A stretch of 11,152 nucleotides of DNA. Origin: Bacteroidota bacterium (lineage in GTDB: Bacteria; Bacteroidota; Bacteroidia; Flavobacteriales; Flavobacteriaceae). Location: contig SBFL01000195.1 of NCBI GenBank assembly GCA_006227965.1, positions 1 to 11,152 on the forward strand. The letters are read 5' to 3'. Under the pieces are notes generated by a model, which worked only from the letters and a program-made list of their open reading frames with translations, ran no database searches and was not told the DNA's origin. Below are positions 4,719 through 8,540 of this stretch, one piece after another. The stretch's first letter is position 1; each line of letters opens with the position of its first letter. A program made the position numbers and the translations under genes.

Positions 4719-4943
4719 ATGAACGACCTCAGGAATCTTTTACAGGAAATTACAGTACTAACGAACGAAATCAGAACCAACTACCCGGAATTGTACCGGT
4801 ACCTTGATGAAAATCCCCTGACCGTGCCTGTCAGCCGCCACCCCCAAATCGACAGGGCCGTGCTGCAGGAGTACCTGCAGGAATTGCGGGAGCTGCTGAG
4901 ACATCACCTCGAAACGCATAAGGCCGCGAACAACCTTAGCTAA
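4719..4943 (+). CDS. Small hypothetical helical protein (74 residues)
   Basis: I do not know a function for this protein. It has no signal peptide or membrane segment and looks largely helical and cytosolic. There is an N-terminal helix (residues 2-20), a turn-rich middle with ELYRYLDENPLTVP (24-37), and a charged C-terminal helix (about 43-68) with Leu spacing and His62, His63 and His67. The composition and proline-containing centre look like real protein, and similar short proteins with a YPELY-LDENP core are, as I recall, widespread in flavobacteria. An AAAGGA stretch a few bases upstream of the ATG could serve as a ribosome site. It is the first plus-strand gene after the strand switch and ends 141 nt before the metal-uptake-like cluster. 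It may share that transcript, but the gap suggests an independent unit. Confidence 0.72.
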   Translation: MNDLRNLLQEITVLTNEIRTNYPELYRYLDENPLTVPVSRHPQIDRAVLQEYLQELRELLRHHLETHKAANNLS

Positions 4944-5061
4944 GATAAAAATAGAGCCATGGGAGAAATTGCCACTTCGGATATCGTAAAGATCTGATTC
5001 ACCGGCAAACTTCCCTGAAATTCGTTTGCAGCCTTCACATTTCGTTAACACCTGAAATACA

Positions 5062-5080
5062 GCTAAAAGTGTAATTTAGC
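5062..5080. promoter_or_regulatory. Short inverted repeat just upstream of the receptor operon
   Basis: The arms GCTAAA and TTTAGC are separated by 7 bp and end 4 bp before the ATG at 5085. The position and symmetry suit a repressor operator or a translational hairpin controlling the operon. No regulator is identified and 6-bp arms can occur by chance, so this is tentative. Confidence 0.3.
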
Positions 5081-5084
5081 GACC

Positions 5085-5384
5085 ATGAAAATGAGTCCGC
5101 TGCGCTGGTTTGCTTCACTCTTCCTGCTCCTGATATTCCTGGGAAGCAAATCCATGGAGTATCATTCGGCAGCTCATATGGATGAGGGCCAAATAGAATG
5201 TAAATGGTGTGATTTCGCCCTTTTGCTCCAGGCCACTCCTTTTGAACCCACACTTGAGGCCACACCGGGAATCGTGTTCAACCTTTTGGAAACCCGGCAG
5301 GCAGACTACTCTTATACCCCTGTTTTCGTTTCTAAGGAGTCTGTTTTCCGAAATTTCAGCCGCCCCCCTCCTTCCCTGTCGTAA
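5085..5384 (+). CDS. Small exported His/Cys protein, first gene of the receptor unit
   Basis: The 99-residue product has a short positive N-terminus and a hydrophobic segment (residues 8-20), so it is either secreted or anchored with the rest in the periplasm. After the leader come His27 and His31 (HxxxH) and then the pair Cys39-x-x-Cys42 in ECKWCD, a plausible metal or thiol site. The tail ends in SRPPPSLS. The order leader, CxxC, Arg-x-Pro-Pro near the end resembles DUF2946-type proteins that often neighbour copper TonB receptors. This is resemblance of layout, not an established family match. The start may be the ATG at 5085 or the one at 5091 two codons later. The receptor gene follows after 67 nt in the same direction. 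The function is not established. Confidence 0.72.
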   Translation: MKMSPLRWFASLFLLLIFLGSKSMEYHSAAHMDEGQIECKWCDFALLLQATPFEPTLEATPGIVFNLLETRQADYSYTPVFVSKESVFRNFSRPPPSLS

Positions 5385-5408
5385 CTGACGGAAACCCTTC
5401 CACATTAT

Positions 5409-5424
5409 CGTGTCCCGGGACACG
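5409..5424. promoter_or_regulatory. Perfect 16-bp palindrome between the small gene and the receptor gene
   Basis: CGTGTCCCGGGACACG is its own reverse complement and lies in the 67-bp gap, ending 27 bp before the receptor ATG. It may bind a dimeric regulator, or form an mRNA hairpin that changes the output of the receptor relative to the small gene. There is no T-run after it, so it is not a standard terminator. Confidence 0.45.
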
Positions 5425-5451
5425 GCCCTCACGTTTACCTGAAACCATCTA

Positions 5452-7851
5452 ATGAGATATATCCTGGCCTTACTTCTGTCCGCGCTCCTGTATTCTGCGG
5501 CATCCGCACAGCAGTGTAATGCGACGCTTTCCGGTAAAATTCTGGACTTCCACGACCAGACGCCACTGGCAGGTGCAACGGTTTTGGTCATCGGTCAGGA
5601 ACAAACGGCCTTTACCGGTTTCGAAGGGGACTACCAAATCGAAAATCTTTGCGAAGGCACCTATGAGGTAGAAGTGTCCCACCCCCAGTGTCGGACCGTA
5701 CTCTATCGCATCGAAATATCAGGGGAGACCCGGATCGATTTCGAAATGGAACACCACCTGGAAGAGCTTGAAGAAGTTCAGGTGGTCGGGGAACTCCTCC
5801 CGGAGAATACCAGCACCGCACAGGAACAGCGGCTATCCACAGCCACCCTGGAGGGTTACAGCGGGGGTACCCTGGGGGATGCCCTGAAGGAGATCAGCGG
5901 GGTTTCCTCCCTCAATACGGGAAGCAACATCGTTAAACCCTCCATCAACGGGCTTACGGGAAGCCGGGTGCTTATCCTTAATGACGGGGTTCGGATGCAG
6001 GATATGGAATGGGGGGATGAACACGCTCCCAACATTGATATCAATTCCGCGGATCAGGTATCCCTGATCAAGGGTGCGGCCGCGCTGAAATATGCCGGCG
6101 ATGCCATCGGAGGCGTGGTAGTGATCGAACGGGAACGCGTCGCAAACCAGGATACCAAAAAAAAAAAAACTCTTCTTGACGGGATTTCCAATGGGAGGGG
6201 CGGGTCTGTGAGCACCGAACTCACAAAAACCTTTGCCTCCGGTTGGTATCTCAACGGACAGGCATCATTCAAAAGGCTGGGAGACCGGGAAGCTCCCGAT
6301 TATATCCTTTCCAACACCGGGATGCAGCAACTGGGCCTTTCCTTTCACGCGGGCAAACGGCTTCTGAACCAGGGCTGGGACCTGGATTACTCCTTTTACC
6401 AGGCTGAGATTGCCATCCTTCGCGCCTCCCATATCGGGAACATCGACGACCTGATTGAAAGCATCAATTCAGGAGTACCTTCCGTGGTTGAGCCCTTTAC
6501 CTATAGCCTTGGAGTTCCGAGACAGGAAGTAACACATCATTTGGGGAAACTCAACTACTATATGCGGATGAAAGGGGTCGGGAAATGGACCATTCAATAC
6601 GATTTCCAGTTCAACCAGCGGTTTGAATTCGACGTACGCGTCGGGGCAGACCGTGACAAGCCGGCCATAGATCTGCAACTCACAACCCATTCGTTCAAAA
6701 CGGATTTTACGTGGGATGCCTCCAGGAATCTGGAGGTTACCGCCGGGCTCCTCGGGCGCTTTCAGGACAACTTCGCCAATCCGGATACCGGGGTGCGCAG
6801 GCTCATTCCGGATTACCAGCGCTATGAATTCGGCAGTTTTGCGGTTGGGGAGTATCGCCCCGACCACAACTGGTTGTTCGAGGCCGGGTTCCGCTACGAT
6901 TTCAGTCGGATTGATGCCAAGAAATTTTACCGGGCCTCCCGATGGGAAGAACGCGGGTATGATGTCGATTTCCCTGAATTTGTCGTTGAAGACCTGGGCA
7001 CACAGCTCCTGACAAACCCGATATTCAATTACAACAATGTTTCTGCTACCGCCGGAGTGCGCCGGGCACTGGACCTTCAATCCGACATAAGGTTCAATTA
7101 CGCTCTGGGACAGCGGGCTCCGAATCCGGCGGAGCTCTTCAGCGATGGCCTGCACCACTCGGCAGCCCGCATCGAGCTGGGGGATTTGCGGGTCGGCAAT
7201 GAAACCTCCCACAGAATCTCGCTGGCATACAACCGCACCGGCCAGCGGTGGGGGCTGAATGTGGAACCCTATCTGAATTTCATTCGGGACTTCATCCTGT
7301 TGGAGCCTACCGGAGTGGAATTCACCATACGCGGGGCTTTTCCGGTCTGGAGCTACCGGCAGACAGAAGCCCGGCTGCTCGGAGTGGATGTGAATGGCTA
7401 TTACCAGTGGACCGCGAACTGGGAGACCCGGCACCGGTTTTCCATCACAAAGGGTACCGATCTGGACCAGGATCAGCCCCTTATTAATATGCCGGCGCCT
7501 ATTACCCGAAATGAACTGGTGTTCCACAAGCAGGAATGGAAGCACTTGCAGATCGGCCTGGAAAGCACCTATGTCTTCAGGCAGAATGAATACCCACCAA
7601 ACATCTTTGTCTTCTCCCCCTCGGAGCAGCAGGAGGTGGAACTCGAAATCAACACTCCCCCGGACGCATATCATCTGCTTGGGATCCGGGCTGACATGGA
7701 ATTCAATATATCCGGGGCGGTTGCCTTACATACGGGGCTAACCATAACCAACCTGCTCAATACGAGTTACCGGGATTACCTGAACCGGAACCGGTACTTT
7801 GCCGATGACCTTGGCCGGAATATCATGGTACAACTAAAATTCAATTATTAA
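5452..7851 (+). CDS. TonB-dependent outer-membrane receptor, ZnuD-like plug (putative metal uptake)
   Basis: The 799-residue product is an outer-membrane receptor that would import its ligand using TonB energy. A signal peptide occupies residues 1-19 (cleavage after SASA or close by). A carboxypeptidase-regulatory-like domain spans about 23-100 (GKILDFHDQTPLAGATV), typical of Bacteroidota receptors. A likely TonB box lies near 106-113 (LEEVQVVG), followed by a plug domain at about 120-226 with INGLTGSRVLILNDGVRM, the acidic/His segment WGDEHAPNID (187-196) and IKGAAALKYAGDAIGGVVVI (206-225). The rest is barrel, ending in MVQLKFNY with the expected terminal aromatic. The plug pattern, with an Asp/Glu-His segment after the NDG motif, resembles ZnuD/OprC-type zinc or copper receptors, so a metal ligand is inferred. 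It is not a SusC type: the length and plug differ and there is no SusD partner. It is preceded by a small His/Cys protein gene and followed 17 nt later by a lipoprotein gene. A 13-A run lies inside the frame. Confidence 0.93.
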   Translation: MRYILALLLSALLYSAASAQQCNATLSGKILDFHDQTPLAGATVLVIGQEQTAFTGFEGDYQIENLCEGTYEVEVSHPQCRTVLYRIEISGETRIDFEMEHHLEELEEVQVVGELLPENTSTAQEQRLSTATLEGYSGGTLGDALKEISGVSSLNTGSNIVKPSINGLTGSRVLILNDGVRMQDMEWGDEHAPNIDINSADQVSLIKGAAALKYAGDAIGGVVVIERERVANQDTKKKKTLLDGISNGRGGSVSTELTKTFASGWYLNGQASFKRLGDREAPDYILSNTGMQQLGLSFHAGKRLLNQGWDLDYSFYQAEIAILRASHIGNIDDLIESINSGVPSVVEPFTYSLGVPRQEVTHHLGKLNYYMRMKGVGKWTIQYDFQFNQRFEFDVRVGADRDKPAIDLQLTTHSFKTDFTWDASRNLEVTAGLLGRFQDNFANPDTGVRRLIPDYQRYEFGSFAVGEYRPDHNWLFEAGFRYDFSRIDAKKFYRASRWEERGYDVDFPEFVVEDLGTQLLTNPIFNYNNVSATAGVRRALDLQSDIRFNYALGQRAPNPAELFSDGLHHSAARIELGDLRVGNETSHRISLAYNRTGQRWGLNVEPYLNFIRDFILLEPTGVEFTIRGAFPVWSYRQTEARLLGVDVNGYYQWTANWETRHRFSITKGTDLDQDQPLINMPAPITRNELVFHKQEWKHLQIGLESTYVFRQNEYPPNIFVFSPSEQQEVELEINTPPDAYHLLGIRADMEFNISGAVALHTGLTITNLLNTSYRDYLNRNRYFADDLGRNIMVQLKFNY
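6157..6169 (+). repeat. 13-A homopolymer inside the receptor gene
   Basis: An unbroken run of 13 A encodes Lys236-Lys239 (plus the first base of the next Thr codon), just after the plug domain. A run this long stands out in a coding region of otherwise balanced composition. Loss or gain of one A would shift the frame and remove the barrel. It is in frame as given. Confidence 0.95.
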
Positions 7852-7868
7852 CATAAATTCGCAATCCA

Positions 7869-8453
7869 ATGAATACGTTCAAACTTCAAACATTTAAGAA
7901 AGTAAAATCCTTTATACCTATCGTGGCCCTGTCCGGTTTGTTTCTGGTCGGCTGTTCAGATGATGACGACCCTGAACCCGTCAATGAAGAAGAGGTGATC
8001 ACCACCATGACCATCACCCTGACACCCCAGGGCGGAGGCACAGCAATAATCCTGGAGTCAAGGGACCTGGACGGGGACGGGCCCAATCCGCCCGTGGTAA
8101 CCGTATCCGGTAACCTGACGACCAGTACTACCTATAATGCTGCTATTGTTTTGCTAAATGAAACCGAAACCCCTGCGGTAAACATCACAGAAGAGGTGGA
8201 GGAAGAAGCCGAAGAGCACCAGTTCTTCTTCACGGTGGGCGGAACACTAAGCGCTTCTGCCTCTTACGGGAATTTTGACGGGAACGGGGATCCCCTGGGG
8301 ACGGAATTTACCCTGCAGGCTGGGGATGCGAGCGTTGGATCCTTTGGGGTTACCCTTAGGCACGACCTGAAAAAGCCCAATGACGGCACCCTTTCCGATG
8401 CAGGAGGGGAGACCGACATAGCCCAGACCTTTGAGCTAACCATTACCCCTTAG
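7869..8453 (+). CDS. Acidic lipoprotein, likely surface-exposed, partner of the TonB receptor
   Basis: The 194-residue product has a leader ending LVGC (lipobox, Cys29) followed at once by SDDDDPEP. An acidic run after the lipidated Cys resembles the lipoprotein export signal of Bacteroidota, so surface exposure is likely. The mature part looks beta-rich (alternating TITLTP, VVTVSG, FTLQAG, FELTIT) and strongly acidic. It contains DLDGDG (residues 66-71) and FDGNGD (136-141), which resemble calcium-loop patterns, and an EEVEEEAEEH run (108-117) that could bind cations. I recall similar proteins beside TonB receptors in many Bacteroidota, often given only vague 'periplasmic binding fold' names. 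It starts 17 nt after the receptor stop and is closed by a terminator, so co-transcription is very likely. A role as a ligand-capturing surface partner is inference. Confidence 0.88.
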   Translation: MNTFKLQTFKKVKSFIPIVALSGLFLVGCSDDDDPEPVNEEEVITTMTITLTPQGGGTAIILESRDLDGDGPNPPVVTVSGNLTTSTTYNAAIVLLNETETPAVNITEEVEEEAEEHQFFFTVGGTLSASASYGNFDGNGDPLGTEFTLQAGDASVGSFGVTLRHDLKKPNDGTLSDAGGETDIAQTFELTITP

Positions 8454-8480
8454 GCAGAAGGTTCTAATTACTTAACGAGA

Positions 8481-8508
8481 AACCCGCCAGAAGATGGCGG
8501 GTTTTTTT
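8481..8508 (+). terminator. Intrinsic terminator of the receptor unit
   Basis: A perfect 8-bp stem (AACCCGCC at 8481-8488, GGCGGGTT at 8496-8503) with a 7-nt loop runs into seven T. It lies 27 bp after the lipoprotein stop codon. In the opposite direction the T-tract is only three bases, so it would terminate the converging minus-strand gene weakly at best. Confidence 0.92.
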
Positions 8509-8540
8509 GTAATCTGATCTGATAGGAAGCGCGTAAATCC

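Follow-up and report, generated by a model that had tools for sequence, protein, structure and literature searches.

A flavobacterial metal-acquisition operon, most likely for zinc, that is probably switched by its own first gene

Three same-strand genes in an 11,152-nt stretch of DNA from a marine flavobacterium (the window) raise the question of which substrate this unit takes up and what its small first gene contributes. All on the + strand, the genes encode a small exported protein with His and Cys motifs (gene one; 5085..5384, 99 aa), a TonB-dependent receptor that is closest to ZnuD and carries an N-terminal extension domain (gene two; 5452..7851, 799 aa), and a surface-type lipoprotein partner (gene three; 7869..8453, 194 aa). 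The initial annotation treated all three products as parts of a transition-metal capture and import system, with the small protein belonging to the capture hardware. Metal import stood as the likely role of the unit, whereas the share of gene one is recast here as regulatory. We consider it probable that the unit serves metal acquisition, with zinc the likeliest metal, and that gene one acts as the switch of the operon.

The ORF coordinates gave the gaps of 67 and 17 nt between the three genes that were first described, all on one strand. A candidate promoter region (5034..5079, + strand), which we take to resemble the Bacteroidota -7 motif TAnnTTTG, comprises the block TTCACATTTCGTTAACAC (5034-5051) and TAATTTAG (5072-5079). 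By-eye comparison showed that the promoter block was near-identical 5' of the small ORF in four Robiginitalea loci, and a crude scan of the upstream regions found no shared zinc-regulator box. The terminator previously described as strong proved to be so. This intrinsic terminator (8477..8507, + strand) has a 13-bp stem, a 5-nt loop, and a U-run, part of the stem consisting of A/G-U pairs with the U-run. The minimum free energy of 8454-8520 was -23.7 kcal/mol, and 0 of 200 shuffles were as good (z -4.67), while the output of a simple consensus scan did not include the terminator.

The co-occurrence check suggested for the three genes showed that receptor and lipoprotein were conserved together among 120 Flavobacteriaceae genomes. 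The lipoprotein was present in 51 of these genomes: 49 held both proteins, two held the lipoprotein without a strong receptor match, one held a strong receptor match only, and 68 held neither (Fisher p ~5e-30), i.e., 49 of the 50 genomes with a strong receptor match also held the lipoprotein. In each of the 13 other relatives having it, the lipoprotein gene was a same-strand neighbor of the receptor gene, as it was in 75 of the 80 named loci. A ZigA-like gene was found in nine of 49 genomes searched, and in three of these nine the gene for the ZigA-like GTPase shared the strand of the lipoprotein gene and lay at most ~5 kb from it; FolE was next to the ZigA-like gene in one genome. Two of the three neighbors were at loci without an adjacent receptor (L087 and L105), five of 13 ZigA-like neighborhoods inspected had no leader, and no ZigA-like gene was detected at E <= 1e-60 in genome G000 (74.8% complete) or in nine genomes of its genus.

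We compared the receptor with known families and structures. Its Pfam Plug and barrel domains were both above cut-off, and the earlier assignment as ZnuD-like was supported in that ZnuD was the closest solved structure both by profile (best PDB match, 75.6 bits) and by fold (best Foldseek match of an AF2 model with pLDDT 85.3; E 4.8e-38; 17% identity in the structural match). XusA (9gbc_A) was the second best profile match. By fold, OprC came next after ZnuD, although XusA and Cir preceded OprC by profile. The scores against NCBIfam profiles were 113.7 bits for haem-type TIGR01785 (below its cut-off of 316.85), which was the best NCBIfam family of the receptor, ahead of ZnuD, 76.6 bits for the curated ZnuD profile NF038289 (below its cut-off of 950), and 66.5 bits for the OprC-type copper receptor profile TIGR01778 (below its cut-off of 472.45).

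The plug contains the W187GDEHAP motif that had been noted after the NDG motif (6010..6030, + strand). Its Glu190 and His191 align with ZnuD Asp99 and His100, and His568 (codon 7153..7155, + strand) aligns with the ZnuD zinc ligand His499; E190, H191, and H568 were invariant in receptor alignment A4. The ZnuD zinc ligands are given as Asp99, His100, Glu340, and His499 in an excerpt of PMC4557270, to whose mature numbering ZnuD chain residues 113/114 and His513 were converted by a hand-counted offset of 14; three of these four ligands have aligned residues, and Glu340 is outside the aligned stretches. The N-terminal extension is a carboxypeptidase-regulatory-like domain (PF13715, residues 26-111; 5527..5784, + strand), and C22, which lies just before it, C67, H77, C80, H101, and H102 were invariant in 62 receptor sequences.

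The lipoprotein has the acidic export-type signal originally described, i.e., a lipobox with lipidation Cys29 followed by SDDDD at +2 to +6 (LVGC29-SDDDD; 7953..7970, + strand). SDDDD is the export-signal consensus proposed for Bacteroides fragilis in an excerpt of PMC5080379. The EEVEEEAEEH run was confirmed at residues 108-117 (8190..8219, + strand), with Glu109 and His117 invariant and E113 conserved in at least 90% of 81 lipoprotein sequences. The AF2 model (pLDDT 88.6) was essentially all beta, and the predicted fold is a beta sandwich without a clear known family. Sequence searches yielded 5,090 relatives at E <= 0.001, for which the NCBI name is 'type 1 periplasmic binding fold superfamily protein'; the fold in this name appears unsupported because the all-beta model speaks against an alternating alpha/beta structure, though modeling and fold matching could miss such a family. 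The SusD family was absent from the Pfam matches of the lipoprotein at E <= 1.

Gene one begins with a signal-peptide-like leader (5085..5162, + strand) by a crude hydropathy test, in which the best 12-residue mean was 2.7 for the window protein and at least 2.2 for all 79 of the RxPP-bearing ORFs described below. The previously reported H27xxxH31 and C39xxC42 are both present after this hydrophobic leader and constitute a putative metal site (5163..5210, + strand). In alignment A3 (67 sequences), H27 was conserved in 97%, C39 in 99%, and C42 in 78%, and the H31 column was 67% His. The window protein matched no Pfam or NCBIfam family at E <= 1, the DUF2946 profile PF11162 included; among the small-ORF relatives, PF11162 was the family matched by the most members (eight of 67 at E <= 1, best 0.0074). 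Sequence searches recovered the small gene in close relatives only. A small exported His/Cys ORF nonetheless sits ahead of the unit almost everywhere, its form being kept in 79 of 82 loci. ORFs of this kind also precede other receptors, including 15 by a by-eye count (L205-L219), in whose genomes the lipoprotein was not found.

A feature absent from the initial annotation is the C-terminus of the small protein, R93-P-P-P-SLS. The RPPP (R93-P96; 5361..5372, + strand), which we propose as an arrest motif, lies 50 residues past the CxxC and three residues ahead of the stop. R-x-P-P (RPPP, RGPP, or RAPP) was found at most eight residues from the stop in 79 of 82 upstream ORFs whose end had to fall between -320 and +60 nt relative to the first gene, and two of the three ORFs without RxPP ended in KAPP. 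All five loci having the lipoprotein without an adjacent receptor also had an RxPP-ending small ORF. With the ORF end allowed within -420 to +150 and KxPP accepted, an RxPP ORF was present in 27 of 29 orthologous loci tested in the L127 genus (titled Flavobacterium sp.) and before none of 24 control receptors picked up with TIGR01783, a siderophore-receptor profile whose cut-off most of them do not reach. RxPP ORFs also preceded 18 of 20 weaker-matching receptors tested in the L127 genus (ORF end within the last 1000 nt of the sequence examined).

The invariance of R, P, and P in A3 is by construction, since A3 was built only from RxPP-bearing ORFs. The distance from CxxC to RxPP was 43-45 residues in all 32 RAPP/RGPP members with a CxxC, and exactly 45 in 27 of them; 19 other RAPP/RGPP relatives have a single Cys 47-48 residues from the motif. 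In the RPPP class, to which the window belongs, the distance was 49-50 residues in 27 of 28 members and 52 in one. As reported in an excerpt of PMC12992588, RPPP keeps part of the arrest activity in ApdA and ApdP mutants, its arrest being weaker than that of RAPP in ApdA (12.9 vs 3.0 reporter units) and almost as strong in ApdP assayed in B. subtilis (2.4 vs 1.9).

The gap after gene one (5385..5451, + strand) is C-rich and G-poor (C/G 2.0) and may serve as a Rho-loading/attenuation region. The five 78-nt segments with the greatest C minus G excess, among starts at 5001-8450, start at 5355-5363 and span the end of the small ORF and the following gap. The perfect palindrome CGTGTCCCGGGACACG (5409-5424, + strand) was found once, against an expectation of 0.00. 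Start-masking pairing in the RAPP/RGPP class exceeded that in shuffles (8.5 vs 4.0, p 7.5e-7, 49 loci). This signal was confined to that class, being absent from the RPPP class of the window (1.99 vs 2.71 in shuffles, p 0.99), and the RNA fold of the window itself was no better than shuffles (z +0.8 and +0.6 in two tests).

Because of the RxPP conservation, the CxxC-RxPP spacing, and the likeness to the copper-responsive arrest peptide CruR, we propose that gene one encodes a nascent-chain metal sensor controlling the receptor. The small protein would emerge from the ribosome as a nascent chain on its way to export. Scarcity of the metal would make the ribosome stall at the C-terminal R-P-P-P, which would permit expression of the receptor and lipoprotein. 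In the class of the window, the parked ribosome would likely cover the C-rich region and thereby block Rho, a route shared with CruR; among RAPP/RGPP members, stalling would more likely open the hairpin masking the receptor start. Binding of metal to the His/Cys site, which by then would have just left the exit tunnel, would relieve stalling, and expression would drop. The receptor would then import the ion via its ZnuD-like site, with the surface lipoprotein acting as an outer partner. The sign of the metal response could be reversed, because metal promotes arrest in published CutF.

A wider reading, plausible but somewhat short of probable, is that flavobacteria govern zinc uptake with a collection of zinc sensors acting as nascent chains. 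In this view, small exported ORFs, many and diverged, that end in RAPP, RGPP, RPPP, or KPPP would precede ZnuD-like receptors and other zinc-starvation genes. They would be of two kinds: with gaps of ~40 nt, a start-masking hairpin would be opened, and with gaps of ~65 nt, as in the window, Rho would be blocked. Such a set would partly replace transcriptional control and would be, to our knowledge, the first control of arrest peptides by zinc.

Zinc appears to be the likeliest metal because ZnuD is the closest structure, three ligands are aligned, and ZigA-like genes lie nearby in a few relatives. The same switch serving copper, as in a CruR-CrtA-like copper-import operon of Bacteroidota, is unlikely. 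Copper is indeed sensed by CruR and CutF, the two relatives of this switch that have been worked out, CxxC suits Cu(I), and OprC follows ZnuD by fold, though not by profile. The copper ligands of OprC, however, include Cys/Met, whereas the invariant plug positions of the receptor hold Glu/His matching the ZnuD ligands and no Cys/Met. The few zinc-type neighbor genes also argue against copper, as does a bulk survey in which Bacteroidota were an exception, RAPP/RGPP leaders before copper-annotated genes not being found there.

It is more doubtful still that the small protein functions as a metal binder or chaperone and forms a capture unit with the other two proteins. Its leader, its conserved His/Cys, and its first position in the unit at the loci inspected would suit such a partner. 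The small ORFs are, however, variable in sequence (mean column identity 26%) save for the leader, the His/Cys, and an RxPP next to the stop at a near-fixed distance from CxxC, a distance that a soluble chaperone would not obviously need, and such ORFs precede other receptors too. A regulatory arrest peptide like CruR or CutF fits these features better than metal-capture hardware. Least likely is a receptor for haem or haemoglobin whose leader peptide would sense haem or iron: the best NCBIfam family is haem-type, haem can be clamped by a plug His and a barrel His, and F. psychrophilum BfpR, a TIGR01785-family receptor compared here from descriptions rather than from its sequence, has a similar kind of N-terminal domain, a co-transcribed upstream hypothetical gene, and an unexplained post-transcriptional induction by haemoglobin, but ZnuD outranks haem receptors by fold, none occurs in the profile list at E <= 1e-10, the leader has a His/Cys metal site, and ZnuD itself was initially mistaken for a haem receptor on account of shared motifs (excerpt of PMC4557270).

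If the preferred reading of gene one as a metal-sensing arrest peptide is true, ribosome stalling governs zinc uptake across a widespread bacterial family, the geometry from site to arrest motif being 45 or 50 residues. It could explain the reported post-transcriptional control of BfpR, place thousands of doubtfully named proteins in a context, and turn 'hypothetical' genes before receptors into predictable switches.

Among known systems, XusA-XusB of Bacteroides thetaiotaomicron (9gbc) likewise combines a TonB receptor bearing an N-terminal extension with a surface lipoprotein, but its ligand is a siderophore; XusB did not appear in the lists of sequence and fold matches for the lipoprotein, though the two may still be related. 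ZnuD of Neisseria meningitidis has three of four zinc ligands aligned with invariant residues of the window receptor but differs in lacking the N-terminal domain with invariant Cys/His and the lipoprotein partner. The worked-out cases of metal sensing by arrest peptides that we found were for copper and in Proteobacteria only. CutF of Rhodobacter capsulatus, whose survey lists Bacteroidota members, is a nascent exported copper sensor with a C-terminal proline-rich motif and a metal motif as in the window, and its mRNA stem-loop, which masks the start that follows, is similar to the signal of the RAPP/RGPP relatives. Unlike the window, CutF controls a multicopper oxidase, its arrest is promoted by metal, and it has a stem-loop signal of a type absent from the class of the window. 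CruR-BfrG/CrtA-bp2921 of Bordetella pertussis is likewise a three-gene operon, in which CruR, a DUF2946 protein, is exported and has a CxxC and then an RxPP three residues from the stop, and the TonB receptor is second. CruR has a CxxC-RxPP spacing of 45, compared with 43-45 for CxxC-bearing RAPP/RGPP relatives and 50 for the window. The window unit differs in its phylum, in having no DUF2946 match, in RPPP instead of RAPP, in a third gene for a surface lipoprotein rather than PepSY_TM, and in a receptor that is closest to ZnuD and likely serves zinc. This kind of leader is already known from bulk surveys, and the window holds a new form of it.

The initial annotation had described a compact same-strand unit in the window, and all three genes, a small exported His/Cys ORF (5085–5384), a TonB receptor (5452–7851), and a lipoprotein (7869–8453), were found in the sequence with the claimed spacings, motifs, and terminator. 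The window represents the entire contig C171 of a draft genome (2.28 Mb, 427 contigs, 74.8% complete), and the named relatives of the lipoprotein, from which the window's genus was deduced, belong to Robiginitalea and other Flavobacteriaceae. Among 40 relatives, the lipoprotein gene was present in 14 (G000, the window's own genome, and 13 others) and the receptor in 15, with G028 carrying a receptor without lipoprotein; the two genes were adjacent on the same strand in 14/14, in swapped order in two (G030 and G036). A wider sample of 120 Flavobacteriaceae genomes, one per genus, bore out the predicted co-occurrence of receptor and lipoprotein: 50 genomes matched the receptor strongly (at least 600 bits), 51 had the lipoprotein, and 49 had both. 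G096 was the sole receptor-only genome, and the lipoprotein lacked a strong receptor in G168 (none at the threshold) and G159 (a partial match adjoining). The lipoprotein gene came first in five among the 49 two-gene genomes and G159, and gaps exceeding 300 nt in G159 and G191 arose because the receptor match was split or cut. Named relatives of the lipoprotein numbered at least 508; in the 80 best loci, which were retained, a receptor match adjoined the lipoprotein in 75, the exceptions being L060, L070, L087, L092, and L105.

A sequence search with the small gene returned only four genomes of the window's genus and two weak matches elsewhere, but a different picture emerged when the DNA ahead of the unit was read directly. 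Of 94 loci, 82 were evaluable, after omission of three without any receptor match, four duplicates, and five with missing, partial, or cut receptors. In 79 of the 82, an upstream ORF of 95–143 residues (the leader, a proposed arrest peptide) carried R-x-P-P no more than eight residues before its stop codon, as RPPP (28), RGPP (26), or RAPP (25), and all 79 possessed a hydrophobic segment towards the N-terminal end. Two further loci (L104 and L125) showed a KAPP end, and one (L026) had no such ORF upstream. An RPPP leader preceded the lipoprotein in all five loci without an adjacent receptor. As background, 12 of 875 other ORFs (80–150 residues) in the same loci showed an RxPP-type end; ten were second leaders or the leaders of L092 and L105, and the remaining two were one ORF in duplicate loci. 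The alignment took in only RxPP-bearing ORFs (67), a choice that fixes R, P, and P in advance; its mean column identity was 26%, with His27 (97%), Cys39 (99%), and Cys42 (78%) prominent.

Farther upstream, a 74-residue ORF of the window (4719–4943; MNDLRNLLQEIT...), which scored below the cut-off of every Pfam and NCBIfam family, had a clear counterpart in the R. marina locus L015. There, a 123-residue ORF precedes the small gene (containing MGEIATSD and ending DIIKI); at its position in the window (4959–4997), only MGEIATSDIVKI and a stop codon were seen by eye, most of the ORF seemingly missing.

The leaders were compared in their CxxC–RxPP geometry with the Bordetella pertussis arrest peptide CruR (Roy et al., PMC9426467), whose spacing is 45 residues. 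In the leaders, this spacing was 43–45 residues in all 32 RAPP/RGPP members with CxxC (exactly 45 in 27), and 19 more had a single Cys 47–48 residues from RxPP. In the 28 RPPP members, it was 49–52 residues (49–50 in 27; 50 in the window). According to the available text of PMC12992588, RPPP retains partial arrest activity in ApdA and ApdP mutants. In the RNA that runs from the RxPP codons up to the start of the receptor, pairing of the stalled-ribosome zone with the start zone, with shuffles as control, was detected in RAPP/RGPP loci (n = 49, median gap 38 nt; 8.5 vs 4.0 in shuffles, p = 7.5e-7) and not in RPPP loci (n = 28, median gap 65.5; 2.0 vs 2.7, p = 0.99), and the window's own fold in this region was no better than chance. 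The largest C-over-G excess in the window lay across the small ORF's 3' end and the following gap, which would suit Rho, albeit only suggestively because C/G was high in both leader classes (medians 1.89 and 1.86).

Among the relatives' receptors that matched the siderophore-receptor profile TIGR01783, most of them below its cut-off, 24 were evaluated and none was preceded by an RxPP ORF; six further ones, whose DNA was missing, were left out. In the genus of L127 (titled Flavobacterium sp.), the leader occurred at 27 of 29 orthologous units tested, taken from 33 strong matches (exceptions: L264, ending RGPT, and L275, without leader), and at 18 of 20 weaker-matching receptors. Inspection by eye of 40 weaker-matching receptors, chosen from the 120-genome search, revealed leaders at 36, with none at L191, L200, L202, and L224. 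At 15 of the 40 (L205–L219), all from genomes whose search gave no lipoprotein, an RGPP leader preceded a different TonB receptor, and the two genes ahead of this leader were, by eye, the pair that in 37 of 90 loci precedes the window-type unit. The leader is apparently kept as a switch at these loci and the receptor exchanged.

Regarding the metal, we consider zinc the probable substrate. Among receptors of known structure, the receptor profile scored best with ZnuD (75.6 bits), followed by XusA (66.9), Cir (56), and OprC (52.4), and the fold match likewise placed ZnuD first (E = 4.8e-38). Of the ZnuD zinc ligands Asp99, His100, Glu340, and His499 (available text of PMC4557270), Asp99-His100 aligned with receptor Glu190-His191 and His499 with His568, all three invariant in 62 relatives; Glu340 fell outside the alignment. 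Copper, the substrate of OprC, which ranked second by fold and last of the four by profile, appears unlikely. Haem is more improbable still; in the fold comparison, haem and other receptors followed OprC. Against the zinc reading, the top NCBIfam score was for the haem-type TIGR01785; no NCBIfam receptor family was reached at its cut-off.

ZigA-like GTPases were found (E <= 1e-100) in 9 of 49 genomes searched. In three of the nine, the gene shares the strand of the lipoprotein gene and lies no more than about 5 kb from it. These are L087 and L105, where no receptor adjoins the lipoprotein, and L102 (read as L146), where the unit is complete. These proteins scored 555–566 bits for ZigA (cut-off 600) and 159–177 for the next family. 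The gene order in L146 is leader, receptor, lipoprotein, another leader (with a KPPP end), two ORFs, FolE (above cut-off), the ZigA-like gene, and, assigned by BLAST only, an ABC ATPase, two DUF3526-like ORFs, and a MerC-like ORF. Of 13 ZigA-like neighbourhoods, eight (L144–L150 and L153) contained KPPP, RPPP, or RAPP leaders and five none; two Fur-family genes exceeded the Pfam cut-off. Some of the eight, which are from other flavobacteria, also hold FolE, MerC-like, or Fur-family genes. Additional exported ORFs in these eight neighbourhoods end in NKPPP or RPPP and have CxxC spacings of 50–54, except for one in L149 that lacks CxxC. Separately, a second exported ORF lay just 3' of the lipoprotein gene at 11 loci (L054, L060, L070, L075, L076, L087, L092, L095, L105, L108, and L121), ending RGPP in ten and RDPP in L121, with a CxxC spacing of 44 in all. 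In 10 of the 11, it is followed by genes for an ABC ATPase and a pair of permeases, which Pfam assigns to DUF3526 in L105 and similarity in the others; in L105, the ZigA-like gene lies between.

The lipoprotein carries SDDDD directly after Cys29. This sequence was proposed as the consensus export signal of B. fragilis and functions, less strongly, in Capnocytophaga as well (available text of PMC5080379). Its confident predicted model (pLDDT 88.6) shows a beta sandwich, essentially all beta, for which fold comparison gave no clear relative; several of its 5,090 relatives bear, against this model, the NCBI name 'type 1 periplasmic binding fold superfamily protein'. Residues invariant in 81 sequences include Asp66, Asp68, Glu109, His117, His165, and Asp183, and a putative role in binding metal or a chelate is plausible. 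In the N-terminal extension of the receptor (5452–5760), Cys22, Cys67, His77, Cys80, His101, and His102 were invariant in 62 relatives, the first Cys being absent, by eye, from the receptors of L205–L219; this set could form a metal hand-off site or a disulphide.

XusA–XusB (9gbc) likewise pairs a TonB receptor with a surface lipoprotein. In F. psychrophilum, bfpR mRNA rises tenfold with haemoglobin and that of the co-transcribed upstream hypothetical gene THC0290_1678 does not, most mRNA 5' ends lie at -399 to -347, and the post-transcriptional control is left unexplained in the available text (PMC9331221); a ribosome stalled where an upstream leader ends would fit. CutF-like proteins of Bacteroidota are known in bulk (PMC9973294), and PMC12992588 reports RAPP/RGPP leaders ahead of TonB receptors throughout Gram-negative bacteria, each as far as the available text extends. 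The leader type is thus known, but the receptor–lipoprotein system, an RPPP class distinguished by its spacing, and the zinc link were not found in the available portions of PMC9973294, PMC12992588, PMC10987492, PMC11960050, PMC12914433, and PMC9331221.
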